Source: Kalaharituber pfeilii (taxonomy: Eukaryota; Ascomycota; Pezizomycetes; Pezizales; Pezizaceae). Taken from it: 64,000 nt of DNA. Below are positions 4,640 to 62,497 of the stretch, piece by piece. Made by a program: the position numbers and the translations under genes. The notes under the pieces are model-generated. The model was not told where the DNA came from. It made no database searches and saw only the letters and a program-made list of their open reading frames with translations. Each line of letters begins with the position of its first letter. The first letter of the stretch is position 1. The DNA is taken from assembly GCA_015179045.1 (NCBI GenBank), contig WHUZ01000080.1, positions 186,001-250,000 on the forward strand. The letters are read 5' to 3'.

Positions 4640-5546
4640 AGTTATATACCAGTATAGCAAGAAACATCGCCACATAGGGCAGCTGGGCGTGGGCGGAATA
4701 CGCCAAGGGAGCACCGGTGGAGAAAAAGATGAGACAGTTAGAGAGCTGGCAATACACAGCAGCCAGAGGCATCATCGGGGCACCCTGGGGGACTCGAAGG
4801 GACGTGGTGGAAGGACTAACAAATCTCGAATCGGTGGAGACCTTCGTCTACGGGGAGAGAGACTGAGTCGAAGCCCGTACGCTGAGATTCCCATGGGAAC
4901 AGATTCGAGATCCACAGCCTAACACAAAATACCTCCGGGGCACGCTGACCTATCGGGACCCCCTACCATTACACATATTCCCCATCCAACCGAGTGACCT
5001 AAGCCAAGAAGAATGGGAAGCAATGATACGGAGAGAAGAAGAGGAGGGATGGGAGAGCGTGTACACCGATGGGAGTCGGATAGACAACTCTACGGGGGCG
5101 GGGACATACAGACAACAGACGGACCAAGCCTATTACCTAGGCAGACACAGTACGGTGAACGACGGGGAGATGATAGCCATCAGTCAGGCTCTCCAGCACG
5201 AGGGGGAGATTCTGATCGTCACGGACTCCCGCACTGCGATATCCAGGTTGCAAAGGATAGCCAGAGGGGACCCGACGGTGGATGGAGCGTCACAGGCAGT
5301 GCGAGAACAGTGGGAGAAGAGAGTGACAGAAGGCAACCTGGACCTGGCGATAACCTGGGTCAAAGGACACAAGGGAGTGAAGGGCAACACGGAGGCAGAC
5401 AGGGCAGCCAAAATTGGCACAGCATTACAGTGCGAGGACGAGATAGTGACAGAAGCAGGCATACGGCAGGAGGGGAGAGCTCTCAGAGCGGAGGAGAGAA
5501 ACTGACTGAAGCTCACATAATCGCCATAGCCCATAGGCCGGCATGC

Positions 5547-5583
<37 letters not shown>

Positions 5584-5804
5584 AGCTCACATACAGACCA
5601 CTACAGGAACTAGACAATCGCCGACTGGTGTCAACCCTGGCAGGGATTCTGGGGAACAAAGGACTCAAAGAATGGAGATACGGCATAGGCAAGGCGGAAT
5701 CCCCGGAATGCCGATGGTGCGGGAAGGCTCCCGAAAACTTCACTCACATAGCCACAGACTGTCAGCCTTGGAAAGAGAAAATAAAAAAGGGGCGGACGGA
5801 CTGA
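4640..5804 (+). pseudogene. LINE ORF2 C-terminal fragment with RNase H and CCHC motif
   Basis: The reading frame shifts several times. From 5023 the frame encodes an RNase H domain with all four acidic positions: YTDGS, the E of NDGEM, TDSR and the D of EADRAA. Where sister copies read EERNRL or ERGRL, this one has a stop (AAC TGA CTG), which is consistent with a CGA-to-TGA change. After the 5520-5581 insertion the frame resumes as LTYRPLQELDNRR and ends in CRWCGKAPENFTHIATDC (CX2CX8HX4C). Upstream, 4640-4922 matches the post-RT region of the LINE at 36219-37957 in shifted frames. The copy is inactive through 5' truncation, stops, frameshifts and the nested insertion. Confidence 0.85.
5520..5581 (+). 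mobile_element. Family-A tail-only retroposon, 62 bp, inside LINE ORF2
   Basis: The insert is only ATCGCCATAGCCCATAGGCC, GGCATGCGATTT and a poly(A) tract. It is flanked by perfect GAAGCTCACATA duplications at 5508-5519 and 5582-5593. It splits the LINE coding sequence at LKLT/YRPL. The inserted DNA begins exactly at the 5' base of the tail stem (ATCGC...GCGAT). Confidence 0.95.
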
Positions 5805-6039
5805 GACAGGTGAAGGGGGGGGGGAGTGGCCAAGGCCTTGGTGTGGGCAGGGAAGGATTGAGAACTGCCGGGTTGATATCCCTTATTTTCCTTTATTTAT
5901 CTTTCTCTCTTATATTATATCAATTATGTACTTAAACATCGCCATAGCCCTCCGGGCGGCACGCGATTAATGAAATAAAAAAAAAAAAAAGAGAACTTAT
6001 ATCTATTTTCCTTGTCCTCATACGTAGGTATAGGACTGT

Positions 6040-7002: not shown

Positions 7003-7071
7003 CTGACCCTGCCATGGCCAAGTGCTACAAGCGGGGTTATGTGATTAAAAAAAAAAAAAAAAAAAAAAAAA
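7003..7071 (+). mobile_element. Family-B tail-only retroposon, 69 bp
   Basis: CTGACCCTGCCATGGCCAAG is followed by TGCTACAAGCGGGGTTATGT, then GATT and poly(A). The flanking duplications are GAGTTCATTGTC at 6991-7002 and 7072-7083, a perfect 12-bp match. It lies in otherwise gene-free DNA. Confidence 0.95.
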
Positions 7072-9009: not shown

Positions 9010-9059
9010 TTTTTTTTTTTATATCAATACTTGCATGCCACTCTAAGGGCCACGGCGAG
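9010..9059 (-). mobile_element. Family-A tail-only retroposon, 50 bp
   Basis: A T-tract and ATATCAATACTTGCATGCC, then ACTCTAAGGGCCACGGCGAG. It is flanked by ACTGTAGAG at 9001-9009 and 9060-9068. The sense strand begins CTCGCCGTGG, the usual family-A 5' boundary. Confidence 0.9.
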
Positions 9060-10236: not shown

Positions 10237-10302
10237 GGTCCCTGTCATAGGCTGGTGGCCTGTATGCGGAGTTACGTGACAAAAAAGAAAAAAAGAAAAA
10301 AG
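10237..10302 (+). mobile_element. Family-B tail-only retroposon, 66 bp
   Basis: GGTCCCTGTCATAGGCTGGT, GGCCTGTATGCGGAGTTACG and TGAC, followed by an A-rich tract with scattered G. The TSD GATATTTGGTAGC lies at 10224-10236 and 10303-10315 (13 of 13). The stem CATAGGCT/GGCCTGTATG is visible. Confidence 0.95.
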
Positions 10303-14234: not shown

Positions 14235-14279
14235 GTTTTTTATATATTATTGATGTGCCGCCCTATGGGCTATGGCGAT
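14235..14279 (-). mobile_element. Family-A tail-only retroposon, 45 bp
   Basis: GTTTTTTATATATTATTGAT, GTGCCGCCCTATGGGCTATG and GCGAT. It is flanked by ATGTTAGTAGT at 14224-14234 and 14280-14290. The tail is short and AT-mixed. The outer stem has decayed on one side (ACATC where GCGAT is expected). Confidence 0.92.
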
Positions 14280-14629: not shown

Positions 14630-14700
14630 TTATTTGATTTTATTTTCTTTGGGGGGAGTCACATAACCCCGCATACAGGCTACCGGCCTATGGCGGGGAC
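14630..14700 (-). mobile_element. Family-B tail-only retroposon, 71 bp
   Basis: A degraded T tract, then TCACATAACCCCGCATACAG, GCTACCGGCCTATGGCGGGG and AC. The TSD is AATGGAACGCT at 14619-14629 and 14701-14711. The interrupted T tract suggests an older insertion than the copies with homopolymer tails. Confidence 0.93.
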
Positions 14701-15020: not shown

Positions 15021-15090
15021 GTCCTGCCATGGCGAACAGCTGCACGCGGGGTCATGTGAAATTAAAAAAACAAAACAAAAAAAAAAACAA
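15021..15090 (+). mobile_element. Family-B tail-only retroposon, 70 bp
   Basis: GTCCTGCCATGGCGAACAGC, TGCACGCGGGGTCATGTGAA and ATT, followed by an A-rich tract. The TSD is ACTCGGTTGGG at 15010-15020 and 15091-15101. It belongs to the GAACAGCTGCA loop subtype, also seen at 33805-33865. Confidence 0.95.
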
Positions 15091-15101: not shown

Positions 15102-15870
15102 TACATAACCCAGGTTGAAATGTCCCTAAGTGAAGGTCACTGCCTCTATCTGTCTAGTTGCAAACGGCAAAATGCTTGTTTTGTTGCATCTATCTTACAG
15201 GTGTCAACTCGACTTCTGTAAAAAGCCCATTCGTAACATTTGCCGTGCGTCATACAGTACCTACACTTGCAGTTCTGCCAAGCTAACTAGAGGAGGGGTA
15301 CAAAGGATGAAATTCCAGGGATCCCGAATAGCTGAGAGCCCGCATTTGACACTAGCGAATCGGAAGTAACCTTTCAATGACTGTTTATGAAACCAATTTG
15401 AACTATGTAAAATGGTCATGCTGTTAAGGCTGCGTAAGGTGAGGACTGGCACCATGCAGAAAGTCTTTTGTGAAAGCGGTAGGTTACTACAAAATTATTT
15501 AAGCTGAATGTCAGTACTATTCACGCCCTGGCCACTTTTGTGCGAATTCAGCTATCTTTAGCATGTGATTCCTCACCGGGATTTAAATGGATAATAGTAA
15601 TACCATTTTAACACGTCCGTACTATCTTATGTGCACATGAGCTTCACACTGGTGTATGTGTGTCTTGATATACTTGTGGTCTCACTTGCTGGAATCGAAT
15701 CTCAAATTTGAACTCTGGCTCTCGGAGTAAAGGGCTGCTGCTGATGATTTTGACTGTAGCGGCACAATCCATTCTCAGCATAAGTCCGATGTGCCGCGTA
15801 ATATGCGGCACTTTGCAGATCTTAACCCTGTGAAGTGGGGTTGCCATGTGTAACCAACTTTCCTGCAAGC
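15102..15870. other. Region upstream of the ANK-HET gene, no gene seen
   Basis: No frame with a recognisable product. It probably includes the promoter of the plus-strand gene starting at 16029, but no specific promoter element is evident. Confidence 0.25.
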
Positions 15871-15925
15871 TTTTTTTTTTTCCTTGTCGTCACATAACCC
15901 CCACATGCTGCCAGCTCTGGCAGGG
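15871..15925 (-). mobile_element. Family-B tail retroposon in the 5' leader of the ANK-HET gene
   Basis: A T-tract, CCTTGTCG, TCACATAACCCCCACATGCT, then GCCAGCTCTGGCAGGG. The related pseudogene leader at 23947-24006 aligns with 15961-16028 and lacks this insert, so it lies just upstream of the conserved leader. No clear TSD was found. It extends the open frame upstream to 15846, and I do not regard that extension as coding. Confidence 0.65.
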
Positions 15926-16028
15926 AGACTCCAAGGGCCTTTATGCACCTCGCTTCCAACTTGATCTGCCGTTATCCAGCCTCCAATCGACCAAAATAAC
16001 GTTAAATCGAGGAACCGAATTCAACACT

Positions 16029-19000
16029 ATGGCGAGTAGTCCTGAAAGGGAGCTGGTGTTCGCTGCATCTCGAGGGGATTGGAAGGCTGTGTTGATGCTG
16101 CTAGGTCATGGGGATATCGATAACAATGCTACACATCCTTTTTCAGGGACTCGCTTGGCGTGGCCCGCTATCTTGGTGGGGGCTGCATTTCGGGGACATG
16201 AGGAAGTTGTGTCGCTGCTGCTAGACCCAAGAGCAAATATCAGCATTGGGAGTGTTTATTACGGAACTGCCTTGGAAGCCGCTGCAAGGAAGGGACATGA
16301 GAAGGTTGTGTCGCTGCTGCTAGATCGAGGAGCCGACATCAACGTTGCGTGCGGTGAATATGGAACTGCCTTAGGGGCAGCTGCATATGCGGGACATGCG
16401 AAAGTTGTATCGTTGCTTCTGGATCGAGGAGCCGACATCAACGTTGCATGTGGTGAATATGGAACTGCCTTAGGAGCGGCTGCATATGCGGGACATGAGA
16501 AGGTTGTATCACTACTGGTGGATCGAGGGGCAACAATCTACATTGTGGGTGGTAAATTCGTTGCGTCGCTGGGAGTGGATATCAACATTGTGGGCGGTAA
16601 ATACGGAACTGCATTAGGGGCGGCTGTATATGCGGGACGTGAGAAGGTTGTGCCCCTTCTGTTGGAGCGAGGATCGAATGTCAACATTGTGGGTGGTGAT
16701 TACGCAACTGCCTTAGGGGCAGCTGCATATGCGGGATGTGCGGAAATTTTGTTGCTACTGCTAAACCAAGGGGCAGATATCAACATTGCGGGTCATCATG
16801 GAACCCCCTTGGTGGTGGCTGCACGTGAGGGACATGAGAGCATCGTGGCCCTGCTCCTAGATCGAGGCGCGGATATCAACATCGCGGGGGAGCATGGAAC
16901 TGCCTTGGTGGTGGCTGCACGTATGGGACATGAGAAGATTGTCGCGTTACTCCTAGATTACGGAGCGGATATCAACATCGCGTTGGTGGCAGTGGCACAT
17001 GAGGGATATGAGAAGGCTGTGGGACTACTACTCGATCATGGAGCAGATATCAACATTGCGATGGTGGCGGCTGCAGATGAGGGATATGAGAAGGCTGTGA
17101 CGCTGCTCCTCGACTGTGGAGCAGATACCAATATCGCGATGGCAATAGCTGCACATGAAGGTTATGAGAAGGCTATGGCACTGCTCTTCGATCGCGGAGC
17201 AGATATAAACATTGCAATGGTGGTGGCTACAGATGAGGGTTATGAGAAGGCTGTGACACTGTTCCTCGATCGCGGGGCAGATATCAACATTGCGGTAGTG
17301 GTGGCTGCAGATGAGGGCTATGAGAAGGCTGTGGCACTGCTCCTCGATCGCGGAGCAGATATCAACTTTGTTGGTGAGAACGGAACTGCCTTGGTAGCAG
17401 CTGCACATGAGGGACATGAGGGCGTTGTGGCACTGCTGCTAGACCGAGGTGCAGATATCAACATTGTGGGTGACCATGGACCTGCTCTGGTGGCAGCTGC
17501 ATATGGGGGACATGGGAACGTTGTTGTGCTGCTGCTAGGTCGCGGAGCGGATATCAACATTGCGGGTGAGCACGGAACTGCCTTGGTGGCAGCTGCACGC
17601 AAGGGACATGAGAAGGTTGTGGCACTGCTGTTGGATCGCGGAGCAGATATCAATATTGCGAGCGGGCACGGAACTGCCTTGGTGGCGGCTGCGCGTGAGG
17701 GACATGAGAAGGTTGTGGCACTGCTGCTAGGTCGAGGCGCAGATATCAATGTTGTGGGTTGCGATCACGGAACTGCCTTGGGAGCGGCTGCATACTGGGG
17801 ACATGAGAAGGTTGTGTCAGTGCTGTTAGATCAAGGAGCGGATATTAACATTGCGGGCGGCAAGCATGGGACTGCCCTGCGCGCAGCTATATCTGGCCCA
17901 AGCTCGTCGTATGATGTGGTAGTTATGCTGGAGCGAGCGATGAATCTCCGCAATGTGAGCTGTCGTGATGGAGACGACTATGCAGAAGCTACTAGTGCTG
18001 GTGCCCCTTCCGACGAGCGTCCCGCTTCCGTTACACCTCCATTCCCGATGCCCTATACCGAGTGCAGTACAACTTTCTCCGGCTATCGCAACCAGCAAGC
18101 ACACCGCAACAGGACCTTACCACCGACCACCGCTGACTCACAGTTCCGCCGTATATTCCACATAGGTAATATCCTTACCCCACAGGAGGCCGATGTTCCC
18201 TGCAAGCACCTCAGCGAGGAAATTCTGTTTCACTCCCTTACAGCCCTCATTGGGCTAAGCTCAGACTCAGCTGAAAGGCTTCAAAACTGGATCCGGGAAG
18301 ATATCCGATACTTCATTTCGAGAAATTTCGACTTTGGTTTAGCATATGCAGCTGCCCGTGTTGGATGGAAGCACTTCAATAAACCAGAGTTTGACGTGGT
18401 AGCACAAAGAGCCCTGTGGTTTCAGAAGGCAATGAAACTTGAGAAGGAGCGCAGCAGGGCAATTGACAAGGATAGCACTGGACAGGAACTTATTCACTCA
18501 CCATATTTGGTTATGCCACGGCGCATCTGGGATCTTAAGAGCAACCGCGTAGTGGATTTCACGATGTTGCATTCAGAAGCCCTGTCAATGGCGGTTGATC
18601 TTCCTACCTTTTGGGCTGTCTCTCACAGTTGGACGAGTGACATGGAACCAGTGGAGACGTCCGTTAACCAGTATCTATGGCCAGTTCCACTTCCTAAAGG
18701 AGTTAACCTATATTATAACCTACGGAAGGAGCTACTTGACTTTGGTGCAGAGTATGTCTGGCTCGATGTGCTCTGTCTCCGACAAACGGCCCCTTCTGGG
18801 TATGGTCACTACGCAATTAAGCAGCAGGAGTGGAAAATAGATGTCCCTACCATTGGTAACATATACCGTGCAGCAGCACATGTGGTTCGTTATTTTAATG
18901 GCCTTGGAAGGCTCTTTAGCAAGGATGGCTGGGATGACCATCGCCACTGGTTACGGCGAGCTTGGACATTGCAGGAGATCAGGACCGAGAAGGTGACCTT

Positions 19001-19874
19001 CAACGGAGGAGTATCATACAATGATGGGAATATCATTCTAAATGCCCATGGCAAAGTTGCAGGGCAGGTTGTCACACTGAGAGCTGCCATTCGCCCTGTT
19101 CTCAAGCTCGCCGCAGATGCAGACAGCCGTAGTGGGTGTAAAGTTTACGAACTTGCAAAAGAAATGGCCCATCGTTATGCATCAAACCCTACTGATAAAG
19201 TAGCTGGAATATTCTACCTTCTCCGCACAACACAGCTACCAACATACAATGAGAATCTCAGTGACGAAACTGCTTGGAGACAATGTTTTCATGTCCTGCC
19301 ATTCGAACGAAAAATTGAGATTTTATTCGACTTTCCCTATCGAGGAACAGAACACCAATGGTTCCCAACGTGGAAACAACTGATGGAATGGCCAGATCGT
19401 AATCCAGATTATGACCATTATACAACAAAATGGCCTCAAGGTTGCAGAACCCCAGAGCTGATCCACTTAGGGGTAGACCTAGAAAATAAACCATCGTTAT
19501 TTATCTCTGATATTTGGGCGATCCGTCATGTTCTCCTTCTTCCCAAGCCGAGCAATCATGAATATCAAGTCAAACGAGGGACGCAGCTTCTGGGCTTCTA
19601 TTGTCCCTACCTGTCTCAGGCAGCAATTGAGACGGATCATCGACTTTTCACCCTTGTCACCCTCGAGTTGGAACATACCCACAACTGGGTGGTATGTGAA
19701 GATCTTTATACGCAGCTTGAAAACTCGACGGCTGAAAATGGAGTTGACAGCGTGGTCAAATTAAGAGTTCTAAAGAAAGTTGGCGTCCTCAGGACCGATG
19801 CGATCAGCGGACTGCTAGCAGTGAAAGGAAACCGCGGCCCTACTGTCAAGAAGATACATGCCTTATTTGTGTAG
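16029..19874 (+). CDS. Ankyrin-repeat HET-domain protein
   Basis: Single-exon gene of 1281 codons. The ATG at 16029 (MASSPERELVF) is chosen over an in-frame ATG at 15846 because the upstream part is a retroposon. The pseudogene at 23940-24440 aligns through the leader and has its ATG at the same place. Residues about 15-630 are roughly 19 ankyrin repeats with the recurrent core DRGADINI, unusually alike at DNA level. Residues about 720-1281 form a HET module: PRRIWDLKSNRVVDF, FWAVSHSW, YVWLDVLCLRQ and RAWTLQE are the family signatures. HET domains trigger heterokaryon-incompatibility cell death, with ankyrin repeats as the probable recognition surface. The order here is ANK then HET with no NACHT between, the reverse of the common HET-first layout. 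The near-identical repeats suggest ongoing repeat exchange. Function is inferred from domains. Confidence 0.9.
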   Translation: MASSPERELVFAASRGDWKAVLMLLGHGDIDNNATHPFSGTRLAWPAILVGAAFRGHEEVVSLLLDPRANISIGSVYYGTALEAAARKGHEKVVSLLLDRGADINVACGEYGTALGAAAYAGHAKVVSLLLDRGADINVACGEYGTALGAAAYAGHEKVVSLLVDRGATIYIVGGKFVASLGVDINIVGGKYGTALGAAVYAGREKVVPLLLERGSNVNIVGGDYATALGAAAYAGCAEILLLLLNQGADINIAGHHGTPLVVAAREGHESIVALLLDRGADINIAGEHGTALVVAARMGHEKIVALLLDYGADINIALVAVAHEGYEKAVGLLLDHGADINIAMVAAADEGYEKAVTLLLDCGADTNIAMAIAAHEGYEKAMALLFDRGADINIAMVVATDEGYEKAVTLFLDRGADINIAVVVAADEGYEKAVALLLDRGADINFVGENGTALVAAAHEGHEGVVALLLDRGADINIVGDHGPALVAAAYGGHGNVVVLLLGRGADINIAGEHGTALVAAARKGHEKVVALLLDRGADINIASGHGTALVAAAREGHEKVVALLLGRGADINVVGCDHGTALGAAAYWGHEKVVSVLLDQGADINIAGGKHGTALRAAISGPSSSYDVVVMLERAMNLRNVSCRDGDDYAEATSAGAPSDERPASVTPPFPMPYTECSTTFSGYRNQQAHRNRTLPPTTADSQFRRIFHIGNILTPQEADVPCKHLSEEILFHSLTALIGLSSDSAERLQNWIREDIRYFISRNFDFGLAYAAARVGWKHFNKPEFDVVAQRALWFQKAMKLEKERSRAIDKDSTGQELIHSPYLVMPRRIWDLKSNRVVDFTMLHSEALSMAVDLPTFWAVSHSWTSDMEPVETSVNQYLWPVPLPKGVNLYYNLRKELLDFGAEYVWLDVLCLRQTAPSGYGHYAIKQQEWKIDVPTIGNIYRAAAHVVRYFNGLGRLFSKDGWDDHRHWLRRAWTLQEIRTEKVTFNGGVSYNDGNIILNAHGKVAGQVVTLRAAIRPVLKLAADADSRSGCKVYELAKEMAHRYASNPTDKVAGIFYLLRTTQLPTYNENLSDETAWRQCFHVLPFERKIEILFDFPYRGTEHQWFPTWKQLMEWPDRNPDYDHYTTKWPQGCRTPELIHLGVDLENKPSLFISDIWAIRHVLLLPKPSNHEYQVKRGTQLLGFYCPYLSQAAIETDHRLFTLVTLELEHTHNWVVCEDLYTQLENSTAENGVDSVVKLRVLKKVGVLRTDAISGLLAVKGNRGPTVKKIHALFV
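16979..17368 (+). repeat. Five tandem 78-bp ankyrin-like units lacking the usual loop
   Basis: Within the ankyrin array, five consecutive 26-residue units of the form A-x-VAADEGYEKAVxLLLDxGADINI replace the 32-33-residue units around them. Each lacks the short G-x-x-GTAL segment. They lie at residues about 317-446 of the protein at 16029-19874. The shared HEGYEKA/DEGYEKA core sets them apart from the flanking GHEKVV units. Confidence 0.85.
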
Positions 19875-20170: not shown

Positions 20171-20214
20171 TTCTTTTTTTTTTTTTTTCATATATATATC
20201 ATTACTCGCGCGCC
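20171..20214 (-). mobile_element. Family-A tail-only retroposon, 44 bp, truncated within the stem
   Basis: A T-tract, CATATATATATCATTACTCG and CGCGCC, flanked by GTTGATG at 20164-20170 and 20215-20221. Only the 3' half of the stem-loop was copied, so this is among the shortest copies in the window. Confidence 0.8.
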
Positions 20215-23870: not shown

Positions 23871-23935
23871 TCCTCGCCATAGCCTACAAGGCGGCATGCG
23901 AGTAATGACAAAATAAAAAAAGCAAAAAAAAAAAA
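23871..23935 (+). mobile_element. Family-A tail-only retroposon, 65 bp
   Basis: TCCTCGCCATAGCCTACAAG, GCGGCATGCGAGTAATGAC, then an A-rich tract. The TSD is AACCTGATCTGC at 23859-23870 and 23936-23947. Both stems carry compensatory changes: CTCGC/GCGAG outside and GCCT/AGGC inside. It is inserted in the leader of the ANK-HET pseudogene. Confidence 0.95.
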
Positions 23936-24454: not shown

Positions 24455-24520
24455 TTCGCCATAGCCCCTAGGGCGGCACGCGAGTAATGATTATAAAAAA
24501 AATAAAAATAAAAAAATCCG
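24455..24520 (+). mobile_element. Family-A tail-only retroposon
   Basis: TTCGCCATAGCCCCTAGGGC, GGCACGCGAGTAATGATTAT, then A-rich. The core flank GTCACGTG occurs at 24447-24454 and 24521-24528. The three bases before it (TTC against CCG) do not match, so the TSD is short or slightly mutated. It lies at the end of the ANK-HET pseudogene. Confidence 0.85.
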
Positions 24521-26270: not shown

Positions 26271-29200
26271 CTAAAATAGTGAATCTGGACCTAGCAGTTC
26301 TGCAATATCATCGTACCCACTGTACATGGCCGATGATCGTGCGGTGCGGCCATATTGGTCCTCCAAGTGGATGTCGACATTCTTGTGCTCAACAAGCAGC
26401 CCCACAACAGCCTCATGCCCGCCTTCAGCTGCCAATGACAGTGCGCTCTGGCCAGAATTGTCCTTCGAGTTGACATTGACATCCTTGCACTCAAGAAGCA
26501 GCCGCACAACAGCCTCATGGCCGCTTGCAGCTGCCAGTAACAGTGGGGTCTTGCCGCGGTGCATCCAGTTGACATCGACATCCTTGCGCTTAAGAAGCAG
26601 CTGCACAACACCCTCATGCCCACTTTCAGACGCCAATGTCAGTGGGGTCTTGCCTAAGTGCGTGCAGTTGACATCGACATCCTTGCGCTTAAGAAGCAGC
26701 TGCACAACACCCTTATGCCCGTGTTCAGACGCCAATGTCAGTGGGTTCTTGCCTGAGTCCGTGCAGTTGACATCGACATCCTGGCGCTCAAGAAGGAGCT
26801 GCACAATAGCCTCGTGGCCATTTTTCGCTGCCGATGAGAGTGCCGTTTGGCCAAAGTTGCGGACAGTGAGATCAACATTACGGCGGAGAATTACCTTGAC
26901 AAGTTCAAGATGCCCAAGCTCACAAGCGATTGATAGCGGAAGTTTTAAATCAATGGGGTAGGTGTCTAGAATTACCCTGCCATGGCCAAGTGCTACAAGC
27001 GGGGTTATGTGATTAAAAAAAAAAAAAAAAAAAAAAGGTGTCTAGAATTAATTCAAAGGCTTTCGCATATCCGCGCACGGTTGCTATCATAGCGGGGATT
27101 GCTGTCATAATGAAACTACCTTCGCCGGCGACAAACGGGTGGCCGCTATGGCGAGTAAACTCCTTAGGCAGCGCGAAGACTGTGCCATTATGAAGGGTCA
27201 CTGAACCAAGGTCCCAAGCGCTTTTCTTGCTGAAGATTTTTCTCTCAATTAGTCCCATAACAGTTTGATTTTGGTGTTCCACAGCCCATGTAAACGGACG
27301 CTGATAAGGGTCTCCGTTTGGGATGACACTCGGGTGTCATTTGGGAGCTGCCAAGGTAGATGTTGTTCTGGAAGCTGGAGATGGAAACAGAGGTCGGTAA
27401 GGTTGCTTTCCCACTTTTTATCGATTCTAAGCAAGGCAACATCCTCACAGTGGGCAAGCCAATGTGAGGTGAAGTATGAAAGCAACGCGTACTCGCGGTC
27501 CATTGTTTCCTTGGACACTAGGCGTACCTGTTGTGTAAGATGAGCCCTTGATGTTGAAGACTTTTGAGGTTGTCTTGCCATGAACTGAGAGATTCGGCTT
27601 CCTATCGTCCTAGAGCTCCCTTGCTTGAGAATCGCCGGTACCAATTGCATAGGATCGGGCAGTGCTTTGCACACAACTGTTTTCTGAGGCTCATCAGATA
27701 TAGCCTGACGGAGCTCAGGAAATGTTAGGTAGATAATGGAGATTTGCGCTATATAGGAATTGGCAAGTTCCAGATTCAGATAAAACATTTGGTGAGATGC
27801 TGATAGCATGTTTGATGACTGTAGGTACTTGTAGACAGAAGAATGAGCGAACTGAATTGTGCCATCGTCATTTACAACTACCATATTTGCACAATTTCCC
27901 AGAACTTTGAAGCTGTCTGTGGGATACTTCTTGCGCACATCATCCCATGTGGTGTCCTCCAACTCTATTGCCGTTGCCTCTGCCATCTCGCGCACGTTCA
28001 ATGGGCGCTTAGCACTAGCAACCCACTGGAATACCTTGATAGCGACCTTTGGATCACGAGTCTGTATCCTATCAAGGATTCTAGCATAAGTTTCATCTAG
28101 ACCCTTTGGTAATGATTTCAGCGCTGCGCGAATGGCATTATCATTGTTTCTTGAACAGATATCATCAATTTGGAAGAAAATCCAGAGAAACCTGTAGTAA
28201 CAAGTCATATATGAGTCAAAGATTTATACCCAGTGGTTGATGAATGCAATTTACTTACATTCCTTGTGCGCCCCCTAGCAGAGAGGTTGTTATTTCTTGC
28301 CTCATTGAATCATCGTAGAGTGTAAGTCTTCCCTGCCGAATACGTCTGTCGATTTCTTCCACAATATAATTTTCAATCTCCGGGCGACTTAGCTCAGGTG
28401 ATGATAAAGAAATCTCCATAAGTGATGAACTTGAGTTGTCGCGAGCGAGATTTCTCAATATCGGGATCTCAGGTCTGCAGGAAAGAAACAGTTTCCTGCA
28501 GTAGTCCTGTGCATGCCCACCCCCACTCACTGAAACTGAACTAGTAGCGGGTTGTGAGGTCACTAGTTTTTGGAGGTACTCAATGATCTGGCATTGATCT
28601 TCCTGCTCACATTCATCAACGCCATCTATGCAAATATATATATGCGATGGAACAGAGGCTGCTAGCTGCAGTAGATCGAACCACTTATCATTGCTGGGAG
28701 AGCCTTGGTACTCTAACTGTCCTTTGCAGAATTTCGACAACTCCTGCTCCATCTCTGGTGAGATTTTGTGAATAAAAGTGCGAAGTATTTGCTTTACTAG
28801 ACTCTGTAACAGTGTCTGAACCTTCAATGACTGACTGCGATGAAAGTCACAAAAGAAGTAGCCGATGAAAGTGCCATGGCTATTTTGCAACAACGGTCCA
28901 CAAAATAAGTGGTCGATTACCGCTGTTGTGAGAATTGTTTTACCTGATCCAGCTAAAATTCCAGCATAATAAGCAACTATTCATAACTATAGGACAAAAT
29001 GGTATTATTATATTAGGTTTACGTACGAATTCCATGACACCACATTATTGAAGGGCTATCTTTATGTTTTTTGACCCATTGTATAAACTCTGGTACCTCA
29101 AAGAGCCATCTCCCAGTACTGTCATGCCGCCTCCCACGTGCATTCGAGAAGGTTCTTGTATAGTCAAAATCGGAGATTGCATCCACTAATGCTAGGTGCC

Positions 29201-33001: not shown

Positions 33002-33245
33002 GGTGTTTTAACTTACTTGCTGCCTTTGCTTCCTTTACTGTTGCAATCTTCTTCACATGTGCACCAAGCTTTTTAGCTGCATTCGAAGCCACCTCCTGTG
33101 TAGCCTTCTTGTGTTACCGGTTCACCGCAACCGTAGGGCGGGCGGTCGGTGGAAGCACGCGCGCATACGAAATGCGCATACGAAATGCGCATACAAGCGA
33201 TGTGTGACAGTCGGTGATGGTGTCGCAGTTGCATAAATGATTGCT

Positions 33246-33289
33246 TTTTTTTTTTTTTTTTAATTTCATTACTCGCATGCCGCCTGACA
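33246..33289 (-). mobile_element. Family-A tail-only retroposon in an LTR, truncated in the stem
   Basis: T-tract, AATTTCATTACTCGCATGCC and GCCTGACA. The TSD is ATAAATGATTGCT/ATAAATGAGAGCT (33233-33245 and 33290-33302). The other LTR shows the empty site ATAAATGAGTGCT at about 34012, an internal control proving insertion after LTR duplication. Confidence 0.88.
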
Positions 33290-33804: not shown

Positions 33805-33865
33805 TTTTTTTTTTTTTTTTTTTTTTTTCACATGACCCCGCGTGCAGCTGTTCGCCAAGGCAGGG
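33805..33865 (-). mobile_element. Family-B tail-only retroposon in the mini-LTR element
   Basis: T-tract, CACATGACCCCGCGTGCAGC and TGTTCGCCAAGGCAGGG. Perfect TSD CATATGGCAACCT at 33792-33804 and 33866-33878. Confidence 0.95.
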
Positions 33866-36218: not shown

Positions 36219-37957
36219 CAGGTGCAACATGATATGGGACGGGAAGAAACGGGCAGAATTTACGGTGACGGACGGGGCCCCTCAAGAGTCTCCATTGTCT
36301 CCAGTCTTGTTTCTAGTGGGCATAGCACCAGTGGCGAGGAAGACCGGGGAAAGGGATTTCACGAGATCGTACGTGGATGATTTTCACAGCGTACTATCAG
36401 ACAAGAGCATGACACGGTTGAAGAGAAGAATAAAGGAACACAGGGAGAGAATAACGAGAGATGCGGAGGAGGAGGACTTTCAGATTGACCCGAACAAGGC
36501 GGAGACGTTAGTGATCGGGGTCAAGGGTCCGACGTACCAAATGGTAGGACTGAGCGTGGACTGGGAGTTGAAGTTCGATGAGCACCATACACGCCGGCTA
36601 GCCTTGGGAAAGGCGGTGTGGGCAACGGTGGCACGACTCACAAAGATGGATCCAAAGAAAAGAAGACAGCTGTATACGAGCGTTGCGCGGAATGTTGCGA
36701 CATAGGGTGCATGGGCATGGTACGACTACGCACATGGGCGAAGAGGGAGAGGAAACTGAGAGAGTTGGAGAAGTGGCAATACATGGTGGCGCGTGGACTT
36801 ACCGGGGCCCGTGGGGCACAAGGCGCGATGTAGTAGAGGGTCTGGCGAATCTAGAATCGATGGACACGTTTGTAAGATGGGAAGCGACTCGTGTGGAGGC
36901 GAGGACGCTGAGGTTCCCGGAGGAGAGACTGAAAAGGACAGATGAAGAGGCAACATACATGAGGGGGCACTGACACACGGGAGGGAGCTACCTCTGGCAA
37001 TGTTACCAACACTACACCAAGATGCGGAGCAGACGGAGTGGATAAGACACGTGCAAGAGGTCACCGACGAGGGCTGGACGCCAGTTTACACAGGCGGGAG
37101 CATGAGGCAGGGCAAGGCAGGAGCGGGGTGGGTCCTAGGACGTCGAGCATCCTCAAAGTATCTGGGCGAACAGGCCACAGTGAACGACGCGGAGCTAATA
37201 GCGATAGGGGAGGCAATGGAGAGGGTGGAAGGGGAGCTACTGATCATAACCGACTCGAGGTACGCGATAAGCAGGATGAAGGCCACGGCTTCGGGAGACC
37301 CGACACACGACGGGGCGACAAAGCGGATGCGGGACGCCTGGGAAAGGAGGATAGCCCGAGGCGATTGGGACCTATCTGTATTATGGGTGAAAGCACACAA
37401 GGGGATTCCAGGAAACGAGGCAGCAGACGAGGCGGCCAAGATCGGAACAGCACTGCAATACGAAGCAGAGATAATAACGGAGGCGGGCATGAGACAAGGA
37501 GGAAGGAGGGAGAGAGCCAGAGAGAGGGGGCGGCTGGGGCTGTCGTACAGACCGTTGGAGAGACTGGGGCACCTGACGGGGAGGCTGGCAGGACTGCTAG
37601 GGGATAAGGGTTTAAGAGCGTGGAGATGGCGCGTGGGGGAAGGAGACAGCCCCGATTGCAGATGGTGCGGTGAGAAAGAGGAGACGATGACACACGTATT
37701 GGAAGAATACAGAGTATGGAAACGGAGATGGCCCGGGGGGGAAGAACACGTGAGGAGGCCACCCCGGGGTGGAGAAGGCGAAGGAGACCCACTGAAGAGG
37801 CTGGTAGAGATGTTGGGGAGTAATCGAGTTCACAGACACATTATTTCTTATTTTTTTTATTTTTCCTATCCGTATCTTATTCGTTATGTACTTACAATTC
37901 GCGATAGCCCTTAGGGCGGCATGCGAGGAATGATATTAAAAAAAAAAAAAAAAAAAA
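36219..37957 (+). mobile_element. 5'-truncated type-A LINE, about 1.7 kb
   Basis: It ends with the family-A tail (TTCGCGATAGCCCTTAGGGC, GGCATGCGAGGAATGATATT) and poly(A). The flanks AGGATCGAGG (36209-36218) and AGGATTGAGG (37958-37967) match at 9 of 10 and are the probable TSD. The coding region covers reverse transcriptase from motif B to the C-terminus, RNase H and the CCHC end. Confidence 0.85.
36229..37914 (+). pseudogene. LINE ORF2: partial reverse transcriptase plus RNase H
   Basis: 36229-36705 encodes the RT palm: TVTDGAPQESPLSPVLFLVG (PQGSPLSP-type motif) and the catalytic YVDDF. A stop at 36703 (NVAT*) and shifts lead through the 36720-36960 linker to an RNase H/C-terminal frame at 37000-37914. 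In RNase H the first catalytic Asp is lost (YTGGS instead of YTDGS). NDAEL, TDSR and GNEAADEAAK remain. The C-terminal knuckle CRWCGEKEETMTHVLEEY lacks its last Cys. RNase H would degrade RNA template during target-primed reverse transcription. The copy is dead through truncation and these changes. Confidence 0.88.
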
Positions 37958-50065: not shown

Positions 50066-50374
50066 TGCGAGGCATGGAAGAAGAGACTACCGGGAGGAGA
50101 GACGGGGCTGAAGATGCCAATAGGAGTGGAGAAAGGGAAGGGGAAGGGGAAGGAAGAGGGGGAGAAGAAGGGGATGAAAGAGGGGGAGAAGAAGGGGATG
50201 ACACTGGCCGGGGTGCTGGACTGGGCAGCGAGTTAGCTGTTTTTTATTCGACCATTATTTTTCCTTTACGCTCTTTTCTTATCTATCATCTGCGAATCAC
50301 ACATTCTGTACTTAACACCTCGCCGTAGCCTGATAGGCGGTATGCGAGTAATGAAATAAAAAATAAAAAAAAAA
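50066..50374 (+). mobile_element. 5'-truncated LINE 3' end, 309 bp, 12-bp TSD
   Basis: The TSD ATGCGCGCAAGT lies at 50054-50065 and 50375-50386. It encodes a decayed ORF2 end (CEAWKKRLPGGE, compare CRVWKRRWPGGE), Gly/Glu/Lys-rich codons and a final stop near 50236. UTR, the family-A tail with compensated stems (CTCGCCGTAGCCTGATAGGC, GGTATGCGAGTAATG) and an A-tract follow. Confidence 0.92.
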
Positions 50375-50605: not shown

Positions 50606-51036
50606 TGCCGCAGGCAGTCTGTTCGCTGTGGCGGGACTTCCCCATGTTGCCATCGGCAACATCCTAGCGCCAGCAAGACACGGATAAGAACATAGATATT
50701 GTTATGCTGCCTCGAATCATGCTGGTATGTTTGATGTTTATCTGCGGGTTGAGGACTGCGTAACTGCAAACAGAGGTCTTTTTTGGTTTTTTATATCATT
50801 ACTCGCGTGCCGCCCTGGGGGCTATGGCGAGGTAAACAGAGGTCTCTGTGGTAATTTATATTTCTTACCCCCCACTCATTTCCTAATGCTGAAAATGGTC
50901 GAAACATTTTTTGGTGATGAGACTACTTTTACTATGTGTGCCGCACGCACAGCGAGGATTGTTGATAACTCTGTTATTTCCTAATACTCGCTCACTACCA
51001 CTCCGCGGGTTAATTCAACGTAGGCGATGTGTGCAT
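50606..51036 (+). repeat. Left arm of a near-identical 430-bp inverted repeat
   Basis: Near-perfect reverse complement of 51302-51733, with one 1-bp indel near 50692 and few substitutions. The arms are separated by about 265 bp. Each arm contains the same family-A retroposon with the same TSD. No transposase is encoded, and no flanking TSD is evident at 50606 or 51733. Confidence 0.92.
50780..50833 (-). mobile_element. Family-A tail-only retroposon in left arm, 54 bp
   Basis: TTTTTGGTTTTTTATATCAT, TACTCGCGTGCCGCCCTGGG and GGCTATGGCGAGGT. TSD AAACAGAGGTCT at 50768-50779 and 50834-50845. Outer stem CTCGC/GCGAG. Confidence 0.95.
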
Positions 51037-51301
51037 TACCCTCAACTCTGTCGCCACCGCCGGTGAATCCACCCCCATTGTGAAATGTGCCCTCACCTAA
51101 CTCTCAGCCACTTTTCCCTACCACCCCCATGATCTATTAACTACCTCTCCGCCCACACCGGCGCACATATTGCCAATCCTAGGTAGTTTCTGCAAAGTAG
51201 CATAGTGGAGAGATGGTATATGTCAGTTCAGGGTAATGCTGCAGAACACATGAAACACATGGAAGAGAGCACGTTGAAATGTACGTTTATTGTAAATTGG
51301 G

Positions 51302-51733
51302 ATGCACACATCGCCTACGTTGAATTAACCCGCGGAGTGGTAGTGAGCGAGTATTAGGAAATAACAGAGTTATCAACAATCCTCGCTGTGCGTGCGGCAC
51401 ACATAGTAAAAGTAGTCTCATCACCAAAAAATGTTTCGACCATTTTCAGCATTAGGAAATGAGTGGGGGGTAAGAAATATAAATTACCACAGAGACCTCT
51501 GTTTACCTCGCCATAGCCCCCAGGGCGGCACGCGAGTAATGATATAAAAAAACAAAAAAGACCTCTGTTTGCAGTTACGCAGTCCTCAACCCGCAGATAA
51601 ACATCAAACATACCAGCATGATTCGAGGCAGCATAACAATATCTAATGTTCTTATCCGTGTCTTGCTGGCGCTAGGATGTTGCCGATGGCAACATGGGGA
51701 AGTCCCGCCACAGCGAACAGACTGCCTGCGGCA
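51302..51733 (-). repeat. Right arm of the near-identical inverted repeat
   Basis: Reverse-complement partner of 50606-51036. It starts ATGCACACATCGCCTACGTT and ends GACTGCCTGCGGCA. Confidence 0.92.
51505..51558 (+). mobile_element. Family-A tail-only retroposon in right arm, 54 bp
   Basis: ACCTCGCCATAGCCCCCAGG, GCGGCACGCGAGTAATGATA, then an A-rich tract with one C. TSD AGACCTCTGTTT at 51493-51504 and 51559-51570. It is the mirror copy of 50780-50833, so it was duplicated with the arm rather than inserted independently. Confidence 0.93.
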
Positions 51734-53035: not shown

Positions 53036-54632
53036 AGCTGAACAAGGAAAGTACAGGCAATAGGCACATGCAGCGAAAGAATACTAAAGATAATTGTAGT
53101 ACTACTTCAGTATGAGTTGGTAAGAGGCGGATGAGCAAAAGGCGACGTGGCCACCAACATAGTTAACAAGAGCATGCCATACGTAATCCTGAGCTTGGTC
53201 TCCCAAAGCCAATCCGATGCTTGGAAACTTTGGCTTAGCCGCGAAGCCAATTATCTCCGCAACCGGCAGGCCGTGAAAGTTTGTCATGAATTCGAAGGAC
53301 TTAAGATCGAAGAGTCAGCAGAGGTTAAGCTCAGTTCATATATAGAAGAGAGAGAGCGCTGACCGATATCTATGGCCTTGGGCCAAAAGAAAACGAGGCA
53401 TCCTGTCCGCTTTGGAATGTCAAAGTTTCACATCGCCAGAAGGCAGCCGCTTAGTGCTCAAGCCCGAACAAAGAAAGCGAGTGCTGCATTGATGATCACC
53501 TTAACTTTTCGTTGCCGAAAATGGGCTCTTCGTACTTTGGACAGGTACTGCCCTCCATCGCCGCACTTGAAATTGAAACGCTTTCATTCCCGTTTGGCAT
53601 TGAGCGAGAACCAAGTATGCTGCAAATACCATGTGAGTTTTCAAGTATTAGACATGCCCTTGTATATCTGGGGAACTCATCCGTGCACGAGACGAGGCGG
53701 TGCAAGTGAATGTGGTTGAGTGAAGGTGCAGCTGTAGCCGTGCCAGCGACGGATGCTGGGGGAGGAGCCAACGTGTGCACGGAGTTGAAGAAGCGGAAGA
53801 CTTGGCAGTCTCTCCAGGCGGAGACAGGAAATCCTCGCAGCTGAGGCGGCTGCCCAGGGAAGTAACAGGTTACTTCTAAGCCCGTCTGCTGCTACGCTGG
53901 CATTTCGACTACGACGCCTTGGCTACAATGGACTCACGAGAACAGAACGAACTCTGAAGGTGCTCACAAATGTCTTCCTCATTACGGGAGTCGCGGGTTA
54001 GTCGCAATGCCATGAGGAAGGTTGGGGGGACTCGCGCTCGAGGCGGAAAGACCTTCATGAGGCTTAAGAACACAAGCGTAGACATCTACGGCCATAGACT
54101 GAAGAAAACGAGGCATCCCGTCCGCTCTGCCATATCTAAACTTCAGATCGCCAACCTAGTACTACGGTGGGTGACCACGTGGGAATCCTTGGTGCTGTAG
54201 TTTTTTTTTCTTTTTCGCTTTTCTGGACCCAAGATAGGATAAACAAACAAATTGCTCACCGCACGGAACGCAAAATTACTGTGCGCGAGATGAGGCTCTG
54301 CCAAGCATTCAATTGCTGTGCATACACTGCGGCGTTATTCGGAAAGTCAGGTGACAGCGGTGCCGAGGGAAAATACCATATACAGTAGTGCGAGGGAAAC
54401 ATTCTGGTTGCAACCAGACTATGCGGATGCAGCTTGACGTTCAATGCCGCGTGTGGGCAGTAGAACCAGACCAATCTCAATAAAGAGTTAAATATTATCT
54501 GCAGTTGAATTGCGGCGAGCTCTTCAATATAATTGCTTGGCATGCATTTCTTTTCATTGCGCCATACCAATCAGAGTGGTAACATACCCACCAAGCTGCA
54601 AATAATTCCAACTTGGTGTGTATGAAGGTAAA
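53036..54632. other. No recognised gene; one duplicated segment
   Basis: The segments near 53377-53440 and 54090-54160 share GAAAACGAGGCATCC-GTCCGCT and a following TCTAAA/TCAAAG-CTTCA-ATCGCCA block. In plus translation both read KKTRHPVR...SK..IA. A small dispersed duplication or gene-family remnant is likely. No longer frame is recognisable. Confidence 0.35.
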
Positions 54633-57027: not shown

Positions 57028-58467
57028 TCTGATTACTCTGAAACTGCAACCCTGGAAAGTCCAAGGCAGCGTGAAGCTCTCAAACTATTTGAACAGGCAG
57101 TTCAAAGGAGAGATAAGATATTGGAACGAGAATATAGGACTAAGCAACCTCTAGAGTGGAAAGACTATAGGATCACTGGTAATCCATCCCAGCTACAGAG
57201 TGAAGCTAATAGTAGTCAAAATAATTATAGTTCCCAAATTCAACAAAGTCAAGATAAAACTACTAATTCAACTAATATCTCTCACATGAAACCTGAACCG
57301 ATGGAGAGAGGATCTACATCTAATCCTACCAATATGATTCGTCAAAATGATTCTCCAAGTACTGGTAATATGGGATATATGATGGAGTTGGCTAAACCAG
57401 AGAAGTTTGGTGGAAACCCAGGTGAATCAGTTACTGACTTTGTTGAGTCGGTAGAAGCATATTTTTCACTCATGGAAGGAAGTATAGGAATGGAAGGTAA
57501 TACTGCTTATTTGGAAAGAACAAAGCTGACTATATTAAAAAACCTACTTGAAGGGAAGGCTAAGCAGTGGTGGACTGAACTTCCTACTACAGCAAGGAAT
57601 ACAGTAGAAGCTGCTCTTGCATCAATAAAACGTCGATTTCCAGTGAGAAGAACAAGGGCATCTAATGAACTCACTAAGGCATGGAATGAAATGCAGCACC
57701 TAAACCAAGGACACCTTTCTGATGAAGAGTATATTGAAAAGACATATGAACTAAATGCTATCCTAGGAAATCAACATGATGAGACTCTAAGAACTAATTT
57801 TTTAGCAGGTATTGCTAATAGTATGGTGCGAATAGCTGTTAGCTCTACGTTGGAAGATGACTGTACCTTAGAGGAAGCTATTAGTGCTTTTCAGAAAAGT
57901 ATTAAAGGTAGAAGAGGACAAGACATGATAAAGACACCATCTCAAGAAAAGGATAGTCAGCTGGGAAGTGAGACAGATGGTATGGACTCATACAACTTGA
58001 AGGAGCTTATAAAATCACAGGAGCGAATGGAAAGAATGGCATCAATGATGATGGAAACTGTACAAGAATTAAAGAATGGAGGAAACTATAGAGGTAGACA
58101 GATGGGACCAGTTGGGCTCCAAGGATGGCAACAGAATAGAGATGAAAATAAAACTTGTACTCGATGTGGAGGAAAGGGGCACTTATCTTACTCATGCAAT
58201 GGTAACCCCTTACCTGAAGAAGAACAAGCTAAATTGCGAAATATTATCTCTAGAAATGCAGAACTTAGACGAGAGAGGATGGGACAGATAGGAGGACAAT
58301 TTGGAGCCAATAGTAGGCAAACGGGAGGATTACCTATGAGTGGTGTACAACCTCCTTCAGTACCAATAGCTGCAGCAGCAGCAGCAGTTAGCTATTACCA
58401 TGACTCAAAGGAGGCTAGAAGAAGGAAGTGGAAGAATGGAGGCAAATATGATAGAAATAATGGATAA
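57028..58467 (+). pseudogene. Gypsy gag with zinc knuckle
   Basis: The frame is open from 57028 to 58467 and in-frame upstream sequence is cut by a TGA at 57025. The first in-frame ATG is at about 57286. A retrotransposon gag core (AKPEKFGGNPGESVTDFVESVEAYFSLM...WWTELPTTARNTVEAALASIKRRF) covers about 57390-57660. The zinc knuckle CTRCGGKGHLSYSC (CX2CX4HX4C) is at 58156-58197. Gag packages the element RNA into virus-like particles. The upstream stop suggests a damaged N-terminus. Confidence 0.85.
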
Positions 58468-59659
58468 TAGAGAAAAATTGGTAAGTATGATCGATAGACT
58501 GACACTTGAAGAGAAAGCACAGCTGTTAGCCATGGTGGATAAACGACCAAGAGTGGAAGAGATAAGTGATGAAGAAGCCGGTCCAAATAGAAGAAGACAA
58601 AGAGTTGAGAGTCCAGAAAAGGAAAACCACTTTTCTCAAGTACTGAGACCGGGAGATCAAGTCCAACTGCCAGAAGGAAGACCTTTTATACCTGATCCTA
58701 GATATGAAAGACAATCTGAAAACATTAGAGAAGAAAAAGGAAAGGGGAAGAAGAACTTAAAGAGACTGGGAGAACGAAAGTCAATTAGGATGATGGAAGG
58801 ACAAATGAGGTGGAATCCTGTAGATGCATTGAGGAGTACCTTGGTACAAGGATTGAATTGGGGAAACTTGATTGATATTGCTCCTTCAGTACGATCTAAG
58901 GTAGCAAATGGTATGGGAATTGAACGGAAGAAGAAAGTGACAACAATCAATATGCTGGATATGGGTATAGTGGGAGAAACTAAATCAAGCAAGCGAGTAC
59001 CGATTCCAGAACCTAAGGGAGCAATTGTGAATTTCCATACTCAAGGAACTATGGTAAAGGAAACCGATAATGAGATAATAGTTCAAGTACTATTATCTCA
59101 AATACTGATAGATGGAGGATCTGTGGTCAACCTGATGTCATACTCAGTTATGAAGCAGTCCGGACTGGACTTGCAAGTCAATAATGACATTATTATAAAA
59201 ACAGCAACAGGAGAGCTAAGAGAAGTTGTTGGGTGTGTGGAGTTTAATATTGATATTGCAGGAGTTCTAGCAACAGTAAAGGTATATGTGGTAGATTTTA
59301 ATCTATCATATACACTATTATTGGGAAGAAGATGGTTACAACAGGTACGAGCAAAAGGAGACTATGAGACACATACCTACGTGATATTTGATATGGAAGG
59401 ACAAGCTCACCAAGTTCCTATGGTGACCGGCAAACCAACAGTAACAATTCCCGAAGTACTGGTGAATCCATCCAAAAGGAGAAGTGAAAGTACTCTGACA
59501 GACGAAGAGTATGAAGAGTTAGTTATGGGCCAAGAAGCAATACATGCAGTACTGAATGAGATTATTGAGGGAGCTGAATATGAAGAAAGAGAGTGGTATG
59601 AGAGTAACGATAATGATGAAAGTGAAGATGACTATGAGAAGGGAAACGAGAGAGGGTAA
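58400..59659 (+). CDS. Gypsy aspartic-protease ORF
   Basis: A 419-codon frame, in the +1 frame relative to gag and overlapping its end by 68 bp, which fits programmed frameshifting or a separate ORF. The protease motif is QILIDGGSVVNLMSYSVM (DGG instead of the usual DTG/DSG), with the flap region IIIKTATGELREVVG and YTLLLGRRWLQQVRAKGD, the retropepsin C-terminal motif. The C-terminal about 60 residues are acidic. The enzyme would cleave Gag-Pol. The frame itself is intact. Confidence 0.85.
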   Translation: MTQRRLEEGSGRMEANMIEIMDNREKLVSMIDRLTLEEKAQLLAMVDKRPRVEEISDEEAGPNRRRQRVESPEKENHFSQVLRPGDQVQLPEGRPFIPDPRYERQSENIREEKGKGKKNLKRLGERKSIRMMEGQMRWNPVDALRSTLVQGLNWGNLIDIAPSVRSKVANGMGIERKKKVTTINMLDMGIVGETKSSKRVPIPEPKGAIVNFHTQGTMVKETDNEIIVQVLLSQILIDGGSVVNLMSYSVMKQSGLDLQVNNDIIIKTATGELREVVGCVEFNIDIAGVLATVKVYVVDFNLSYTLLLGRRWLQQVRAKGDYETHTYVIFDMEGQAHQVPMVTGKPTVTIPEVLVNPSKRRSESTLTDEEYEELVMGQEAIHAVLNEIIEGAEYEEREWYESNDNDESEDDYEKGNERG

Positions 59660-59673
59660 TCAATGAAGGCCAA

Positions 59674-61455: not shown

Positions 61456-62497
61456 AGATAATGAAGGAAGCAGCAGTATGGAAATGGGAAGAGATAGAGA
61501 GAGGAGGAAAAGTGAAGGGAAGAAGAGACCCAAAAAGAAGAAAGGTATTGGAAAAGTTTGAGTGGGGAGAAGAGCAGCAAAAATCCTTTGATTATATCAA
61601 ATCGGCGATTGGAGAAGTGAACTTATTTGGAACATCAAGAGATAAGAGGTTTTATCTGTCAGTTACAGTTTCTGAAAGAGGGTTGGGAGGAGTGCTATTT
61701 CAACTAGATGAGATAGATGAGATTGAACTGGATAAGGGGATGGAAAAAGGGATAAAGAATGGGAAAAAACTATACCCAAAAAGAAAAGAGTTAGTAATTG
61801 ATTATATCTCTGAGCCATATAAAGGAGCAGAAGGGAGATACCCAAGAGAGGAGAGAGAAGTATTGGGAGTGGTTAGGTGCTTGGAGAGTGTGAAGTGGCG
61901 TATCCTTGGTAGCATGTTTCCTATTGTTGTTTATACTGATTCCCAGCTATTTTGAGAGTGTTGTCAGGAGACGGAGTTAGAGGAAGATTGGCGGAGTGGC
62001 AAGAAATCCTTTCTGAATTTGATTTAGAAATAAGGCATGTAGACAGTGGAGATGTGAAGATAGCTGACGGATTGTCGAGACTGCCGGAGGGTGTACGGAG
62101 ATGGTTGGATCCAGGAAAGTATGCAGATCATGATGTTGGGAGAACTTCAATAACTGTGTCCATGGTTGAGGTGGTACAAAGAAATACTGGAGGTAGAAGG
62201 GTGAGTGATATTGTTAAGGGGAAAGGGGAAGAAAAAGAAGAGATGAGGATCCAAGAGGAGATAGAGAAATGGGGAAAATGGATCAGTGAGATATGGTATG
62301 GGGAGATTGTCTGGTATAAGCTAACAGGAACAATAAAAGAGAAGAGGATGGATGGAAGAAAGGAAAGGATGGTAAAAAAGAAGGCGTCGAAATTCTCATT
62401 AATAGAGAAGAAAGGAGAAGTGGGACTGGGGTACGTTGAGAAGAATGGCACTATCTCATGGTGTGTTCCTGAAGGGCAAGTGGATCAATTGTTGTAA
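61452..62497 (+). pseudogene. Gypsy RNase H region, frameshifted
   Basis: The first frame (to 61955) carries KKRRKVLEKFEWGEEQQKSFDYIKSAIGEV...FYLSVTVSERGLGGVLFQ and YPREEREVLGVVRCLESVKW...FPIVVYTDSQLF, ending at a stop. The frame starting 61952 continues RVLSGDGVRGRLAEWQEILSEFDLEIRHVDSGDVKIADGLSRLP. One missing base near 61943 would explain the break. The second frame stops at 62497 (VDQLL*), just before the integrase zinc-finger region. Confidence 0.85.

Follow-up and report, generated by a model that had tools for sequence, protein, structure and literature searches.

Can the tail of a LINE move without the LINE? This is the question raised by the 64-kb stretch of Kalaharituber pfeilii DNA analyzed here (hereafter the window; part of contig 340 in an assembly of 78.03 Mb and 360 contigs), in which eight short insertions had been predicted to hold only a LINE 3′ stem-loop and an A tract and to form a distinct tail-only retroposon family. 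We found that a LINE-tail hairpin of ~30 nt with an A run, lacking the rest of the LINE, is a frequent insert here, cut almost to the nucleotide at the hairpin foot, a pattern suggesting that RNA hairpins are trimmed and then copied into DNA as very small mobile units.

Hairpin-only inserts in the window

All eight predicted inserts, referred to as family A, are present and carry direct repeats on both sides (only 7–8 bp at three of them). Six begin at the hairpin foot or 2 nt outside it, and the other two (20171 and 33246) begin inside the hairpin. Inserts with the hairpin of a second LINE family (family B) were also identified, and are listed below together with LINE copies that carry the family A hairpin.

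5520–5581, plus strand: family A hairpin-only retroposon and its A tract; TSD GAAGCTCACATA; starts exactly at the outermost stem pair
9010–9059, minus strand: family A hairpin-only retroposon; TSD CTCTACAGT; starts exactly at the outermost pair
14235–14279, minus strand: family A hairpin-only retroposon; TSD ACTACTAACAT, hand-read; starts exactly at the outermost pair
20171–20214, minus strand: family A insert with the 3′ part of the hairpin only, beginning inside the hairpin; 7-bp repeat GTTGATG, hand-read, a weak TSD
23871–23935, plus strand: family A hairpin-only retroposon; TSD AACCTGATCTGC; starts 2 nt outside the stem
24455–24520, plus strand: family A hairpin-only retroposon; 8-bp TSD GTCACGTG, under the score cut (9) of the exact-hairpin scan described below; start exact, end hand-counted
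33241–33289, minus strand: family A insert beginning in the hairpin loop (predicted at 33246); 8-bp TSD TCATTTAT, hand-read
50780–50833, minus strand: family A hairpin-only retroposon within an inverted repeat; TSD AGACCTCTGTTT; starts 2 nt outside the stem
51505–51558, plus strand: copy of the 50780 insertion in the opposite arm of the inverted repeat, not independent
7003–7071, plus strand: family B hairpin-only retroposon; TSD GAGTTCATTGTC
10237–10301, plus strand: family B-type hairpin-only retroposon; TSD with one mismatch
14630–14700, minus strand: family B-type hairpin-only retroposon; TSD AGCGTTCCATT
15021–15090, plus strand: family B hairpin-only retroposon; TSD ACTCGGTTGGG
26975–27035, plus strand: family B hairpin-only retroposon; TSD AGGTGTCTAGAATTA
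33805–33865, minus strand: family B hairpin-only retroposon; TSD AGGTTGCCATATG
5938–5967, plus strand: family A hairpin closing a longer LINE copy
50319–50348, plus strand: family A hairpin closing a 5′-truncated LINE copy (insert from 50066); TSD ATGCGCGCAAGT
36946–37914, plus strand: 3′ coding end of a family A LINE; Pfam RNase_H (E = 5.5e-18); the frame runs into a hairpin starting near 37898

The insert at 51505, noted previously as a mirror of the one at 50780, is indeed the same insert, and it represents an inverted duplication of the 50780 copy rather than a second event: the arms at 50693–51036 and 51302–51645 (344 nt, plus 88 nt) are by computation 100% complementary, and their A tracts differ by a single base. 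The region as a whole (50606–51733) is a near-perfect inverted repeat with 344- and 88-nt arms and a 265-nt spacer, and carries one hairpin-only insert per arm; it has the appearance of a recently formed inverted duplication or else of an inverted-repeat element.

Profile matches give the window a fungal look, with HET and ankyrin domains alongside LINE frames that carry RNase H. A 1346-codon frame (15834–19874), internally repetitive, contains many ankyrin repeats and a HET domain, and the frames at 57028–63476 resemble by eye those of an LTR retrotransposon (gag-like with CCHC, FVDD reverse transcriptase, integrase-like). An Rfam search of the window returned a single 5S rRNA gene (54084–54203, 82.2 bits) and nothing beyond it. 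Elsewhere in the genome, 29 of the 32 family A hairpins among the matches listed for C1 (2.99 Mb) lie in its first 550 kb, a clustering that suggests a compartmented genome.

Distribution of 5′ ends

Exact family A hairpins (query CGCCATAGCCCNNRGGGCGGCAYGCGA, then mostly NTAATGAWAT and the A tract) numbered 2841 in the whole genome (1425 + 1416), compared to none for the reversed pattern. The distribution of 5′ ends was plotted on samples of the genome. The exact-hairpin sample covered the window, C2:1-200000, other listed places on contigs 1 and 2, and twenty on contigs 3–8, leaving out copies at locus edges, and yielded 125 distinct copies with enough flank. A TSD (score of at least 9) was found in 55 of these, compared to 9 of 372 when downstream flanks were exchanged (~3 per 125). 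The 70 copies with no TSD inside 420 nt, many of which have T-rich LINE-like sequence upstream, were left uncounted.

Relative to the first C of CGCC, 25 of the 55 resolved copies start at −10 to +3, a single copy at −50 to −11, and 29 at −420 to −51. The commonest near starts were −4 (7), −2 (6), 0 (4), and −1 (3), the outermost pair being at −2; starts at 0 or −1 are equally readable as −2 where the end bases of the target match the expected stem bases. The starts at −4, 2 nt outside the stem, include one site counted twice, and one start lacks the two outermost stem bases; both deviations count against the trimmed-RNA account given below. A few rows carry their own reading: L129 (+3) is better read as −4, the long copy at −364 depends on an A-rich match, and L056 and L124, one duplicated site among the 29 long rows, can also be read with a TSD at −9, probably as hairpin-only inserts carrying additional bases.

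The second scan was blind to the hairpin and took the A tracts of the window and C2:1-200000 as its starting point (264 kb, n = 236). TSDs flank 74 of the 236 tracts, compared to 1 of 236 with exchanged downstream flanks, and in 34 of the 74 the insert ahead of the A tract is 33–44 nt long. Read by eye, each of the 74 terminates in the tail of family A or of family B, in some cases reduced to a remnant; the regular expression missed two, a decayed B tail and an A tail of 10 nt. Among the 72 inserts placed by script, 38 start in the 8-nt stretch at the hairpin foot (0.35 expected from the density at −600 to −7), 3 at −50 to −7, 23 at −600 to −51, and 8 inside the hairpin. By family, these foot starts make up 25 of 53 inserts in A and 13 of 19 in B; the loose family expression also matched 75 of 400 random positions, and the labels are taken from the insert sequences. 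By eye, one insert scored as inside (C2 152502) starts at the foot and has an internal deletion, and one labelled B has a family A tail, giving 39 foot starts, with 13 of 18 in family B. As a stringent machine would lead one to expect, none of the 74 inserts looked by eye like a processed pseudogene derived from host mRNA.

Both scans together gave 63 hairpin-foot rows, which reduce to 58 distinct TSDs after subtracting three shared by both methods and two duplicates (50829/51509 and L077/L083, the two duplicated sites found); clustering of flanks by script gave 52 sites, but merged rows with different TSDs. Foot and long copies are alike in their A tracts (median 21.5 vs 24, P = 0.14) and TSD length (13 vs 13), and the inserts combine TSDs, a 3′ A tract, and 5′ truncation, as in target-primed reverse transcription.

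In these samples, then, the sharp peak at the stem base that had been proposed stands far above the longer truncations, marking a real hairpin-only class; the smooth spread of truncation lengths that would have spoken against it was looked for in the same samples, and an excess at the stem base was found instead. Chance matches are excluded by the reversed-pattern, exchanged-flank, and shuffle controls, ascertainment through the hairpin itself by the hairpin-blind scan, and the repeated copying of a single locus by the 58 distinct TSDs. Hairpin-only copies make up about half of the TSD-resolved inserts in the sampled stretch, a share not to be extrapolated genome-wide given that the sampled stretches are LINE-rich.

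Family B was followed up with a core query (TGCCATGGCN5GCTRCAMGCGGGG; 1218 + 1228 exact genome-wide matches, control 0) at the first 20 listed places, fetched after the peak had been seen. TSDs were found in 12 of these copies (null 1 of 185), of which 10 start at −1 to −5 from the T of TGCC, where the outermost pair is at −4, and two are long (−157 and −200). The eight copies without a TSD comprise five with LINE sequence upstream and three that are unclear.

The hairpins and their source LINEs

The family A hairpin folds into a 5-bp stem, an asymmetric internal loop (CAUA / GGCAY), a 4-bp stem, and a 3-nt loop. Covariation was analyzed in 76 distinct family A hairpins with up to 6 mismatches to the motif, a choice that favours pairing; standard pairs fill 92% of pair cells, compared to 33–48% with shifted partners. 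The outermost pair (C-G 38, A-U 25, U-G 5) is paired in 68 of 76 hairpins against a shuffle maximum of 51, and the inner pair 10/14 (C-G 58, U-A 12) in 73 against 69. Covariation of the kind seen in the 3′ stem-loop of stringent-type LINE tails thus exceeds the shuffles at two of the nine stem pairs, the other seven being near-invariant and not above shuffles. Each of the two closing pairs is combined with several different loops, evidence against a switch inherited only once.

Family B has a similar overall plan with a different outer stem and loop, and shares with family A the letters GCCAT and a GCAYGCG-like stretch. Three family B hairpin types fold at −13.5 to −14.8 kcal/mol as RNA, but at only −2 to −3 kcal/mol as cDNA. 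Two family A hairpins (L103 and L106) have an extra stretch between the arms that holds repeated hairpin-like motifs, and are possible larger variants of the hairpin.

The hairpins of the tail-only inserts also end LINE copies with reverse transcriptase and/or RNase H frames, the kind of tail sharing seen between a SINE and its partner LINE. In family B, a 981-aa frame on the minus strand (L010:4760-7702) combines RVT_1 (1.5e-23) and RNase_H (7.8e-11) and is followed by the family B hairpin. This union of both domains in one frame, a trait of the Tad1 clade, was found for family B, while family A showed RNase H only (the 36946–37914 frame listed above). Among the matches listed, the family B frame had 48 homologues, several with PF14529/PF03372 and some with ascomycete names. 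Judged by these frames, families A and B appear to be RNase H-bearing, Tad1-like LINEs.

If the tail-only copies formed an independent family, they might be expected to have subtypes of their own. In family A, 25 tail-only and 29 long copies look alike by eye in their loop, Y base, and post-hairpin subtypes, with no diagnostic subtype seen in the tail-only copies. Since they carry the subtypes of the LINEs, family A tail-only copies look, at the level of sequence, like LINE by-products. The distinct tail-only family of the original prediction was therefore not borne out for family A: its copies carry LINE subtypes, and a second LINE family shows the same class.

A related alternative is a headless SINE: transcription of one tail-only locus, or of several, would let the unit spread as a family in its own right. 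This is where family B differs. When its copies are sorted into subtypes by the bases that follow the hairpin, most TCA copies are hairpin-only (11 vs 2 LINE-attached, 6 unclear) and most TTA copies are LINE-attached (10 hairpin-only vs 21, 7 unclear; Fisher P = 0.0024, post hoc). However, LINE-attached copies of the TCA subtype do exist, family A shows no such split, and an insert of 30–45 nt leaves little room for a promoter. Neither a pol III promoter nor a tRNA, 5S, or 7SL head was seen in the inserts, which consist of hairpin, linker, and A tract only, and ARAGORN found no tRNA in the window. We regard a self-transcribed headless SINE as improbable; an independent tail-only lineage may exist within family B, with the TCA subtype as its best support.

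Origin of the hairpin-foot boundary

The reading we favour, with a confidence just short of even, is that the template is a LINE RNA already trimmed to its hairpin, making the inserts by-products of the LINEs. Family A and B LINEs would end in an RNA hairpin, presumably the handle of the ORF2 protein in a stringent type of recognition, and beyond it would come a short linker and poly(A); binding of the hairpin by the ORF2 protein is borrowed from other LINEs and may apply here. Part of the LINE mRNA pool would lose its 5′ side, either through 5′-3′ decay stalling at the hairpin, bare or protein-bound, or through cuts in exposed single strand, leaving a polyadenylated remnant that begins at the outermost base pair. 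Such a remnant would retain all that target-primed reverse transcription needs, and its insertion would leave a hairpin unit of ~30 bp that has a normal A tract and normal TSDs. We infer that the boundary is already on the RNA before reverse transcription, and likewise what makes it there. The account draws on the foot peak, its occurrence in two families, the two covarying pairs, the TSDs, and the shared family A subtypes, all of which are observed.

As the 5′ end falls at the foot of two hairpins with differing outer stems, structure is the likelier cue, although the letters that families A and B share leave sequence as a possible cue, against a structure-only reading. The level at which the structure acts bears on a further alternative, in which a long cDNA folds at the hairpin and the remainder is removed by hairpin-driven release or by a flap nuclease, Rad1-Rad10 being of this type. 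As DNA, the hairpin of family A has moderate stability (about −6 kcal/mol), and the rarer B-type hairpin (14700-like) is stable both as RNA and as DNA, so that such trimming is conceivable for these. Ordinary family B cDNA hairpins, in which G-U pairs become A-C mismatches, hardly form, yet 10 of 12 resolved copies start at the foot; the cue thus follows the RNA rather than the cDNA structure, and family B disfavours a cDNA-level hairpin to the point that we consider it very improbable.

A more serious alternative keeps a long LINE RNA as the template, with the reverse transcriptase melting and copying the hairpin it holds and then dropping off, so that the cDNA ends at the foot. If the enzyme let go right after the hairpin, identical foot junctions would result, which counts against the trimmed RNA, and the TSDs, A tracts, and family A subtypes are those of long copies. 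Early drop-off does occur, as by eye 7 of the 74 inserts of the blind scan start inside the hairpin and one just 3′ of it. However, the whole hairpin is copied in foot-start inserts, and a block imposed by structure would be expected at its 3′ foot, where that single insert starts, rather than past the last 5′ base. A block at the 3′ foot can accordingly be rejected, and single-nucleotide sharpness would, in our judgement, be unusual for drop-off.

Starts at the hairpin loop, which release of the enzyme does not predict, bear on the same choice. Genome-wide counts of the family A pattern were 957 with and 1179 without the 5′ arm core, and we read by eye all 21 listed places up to C12:164778 that lack the exact core. 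Five of these start inside the hairpin, four of them at the loop (one with a weak TSD); three others are hairpin-only with mutated stems, and most of the remaining 13 are longer copies whose hairpin is mutated or rearranged. With further loop starts at C2 108961, 128986, and 140344 and at 33246 in the window, the cluster is small (about eight cases, the weak TSD included) and suggests cuts in exposed RNA; as it fits nicking of exposed RNA, we count it for the trimmed template. Between the two mechanisms originally proposed, a processed RNA fits better and drop-off of the enzyme at the stem less well. We thus favour a trimmed RNA template, inferred as it is, and hold release of the reverse transcriptase to be unlikely.

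Stringent-type LINEs such as ZfL2-1, ZfL2-2, and UnaL2 are described as using a conserved 3′ tail hairpin as the reverse transcriptase handle, and stringent LINE/SINE pairs are included in the Tad1 clade (PMC4176376). The 3′ tail hairpin is common to these LINEs and those reported here; in the former it ends LINEs and SINEs, whereas here the hairpin alone, cut at its foot, makes up a large share of insertions. Fungal tRNA-headed SINEs include Mg-SINE, which shares its tail with MgL/MGR583, SINE2-1_BG with Tad1-24_BG (PMC3747384), and AfuSINE2-1a with a LINE-like tail (PMC5063351). They resemble the present inserts in being non-autonomous, with a LINE-like 3′ end and TSDs, but carry a tRNA-related head where ours are headless. 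In PMC3747384, ordinary LINE copies are described as 5′-truncated at various positions; such copies, also present here, have the same 3′ ends, TSDs, and A tracts as the hairpin-only inserts, but their 5′ ends are scattered while those of hairpin-only copies pile up within a few nucleotides. The same paper mentions tailless retropseudogenes derived from truncated tRNAs and SINE RNAs, likewise truncated structured RNAs that were retroposed, though these lack poly(A), which the present inserts, being LINE ends, retain.

Stringent 3′ stem-loop LINEs, including Tad1-clade pairs, and tail-sharing fungal tRNA SINEs are already known. Titles and abstract openings among the literature matches listed contained no description of a hairpin-only class of LINE insertions; against these matches, the hairpin alone as an insert, with a near nucleotide-sharp 5′ end, appears to be new. 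A bolder version, which we regard as possible though rather doubtful, is that a stable ~30-nt polyadenylated hairpin RNA, made by the fungus from the ends of two LINE families, serves the LINE machinery as a major substrate and would be a headless SINE and the smallest natural retroposon unit, with its 5′ end set by RNA structure alone.

At ~60 bp, hairpin-only inserts are easily missed by annotation. They give a near nucleotide-precise footprint of the template end, and bring two questions within reach of a test: whether decayed RNA or reverse transcriptase drop-off lies behind the 5′ truncation of LINEs, and what the minimal handle of a stringent LINE is. The hairpin and its A tail may be the smallest RNA mobilized by a LINE machine in nature.
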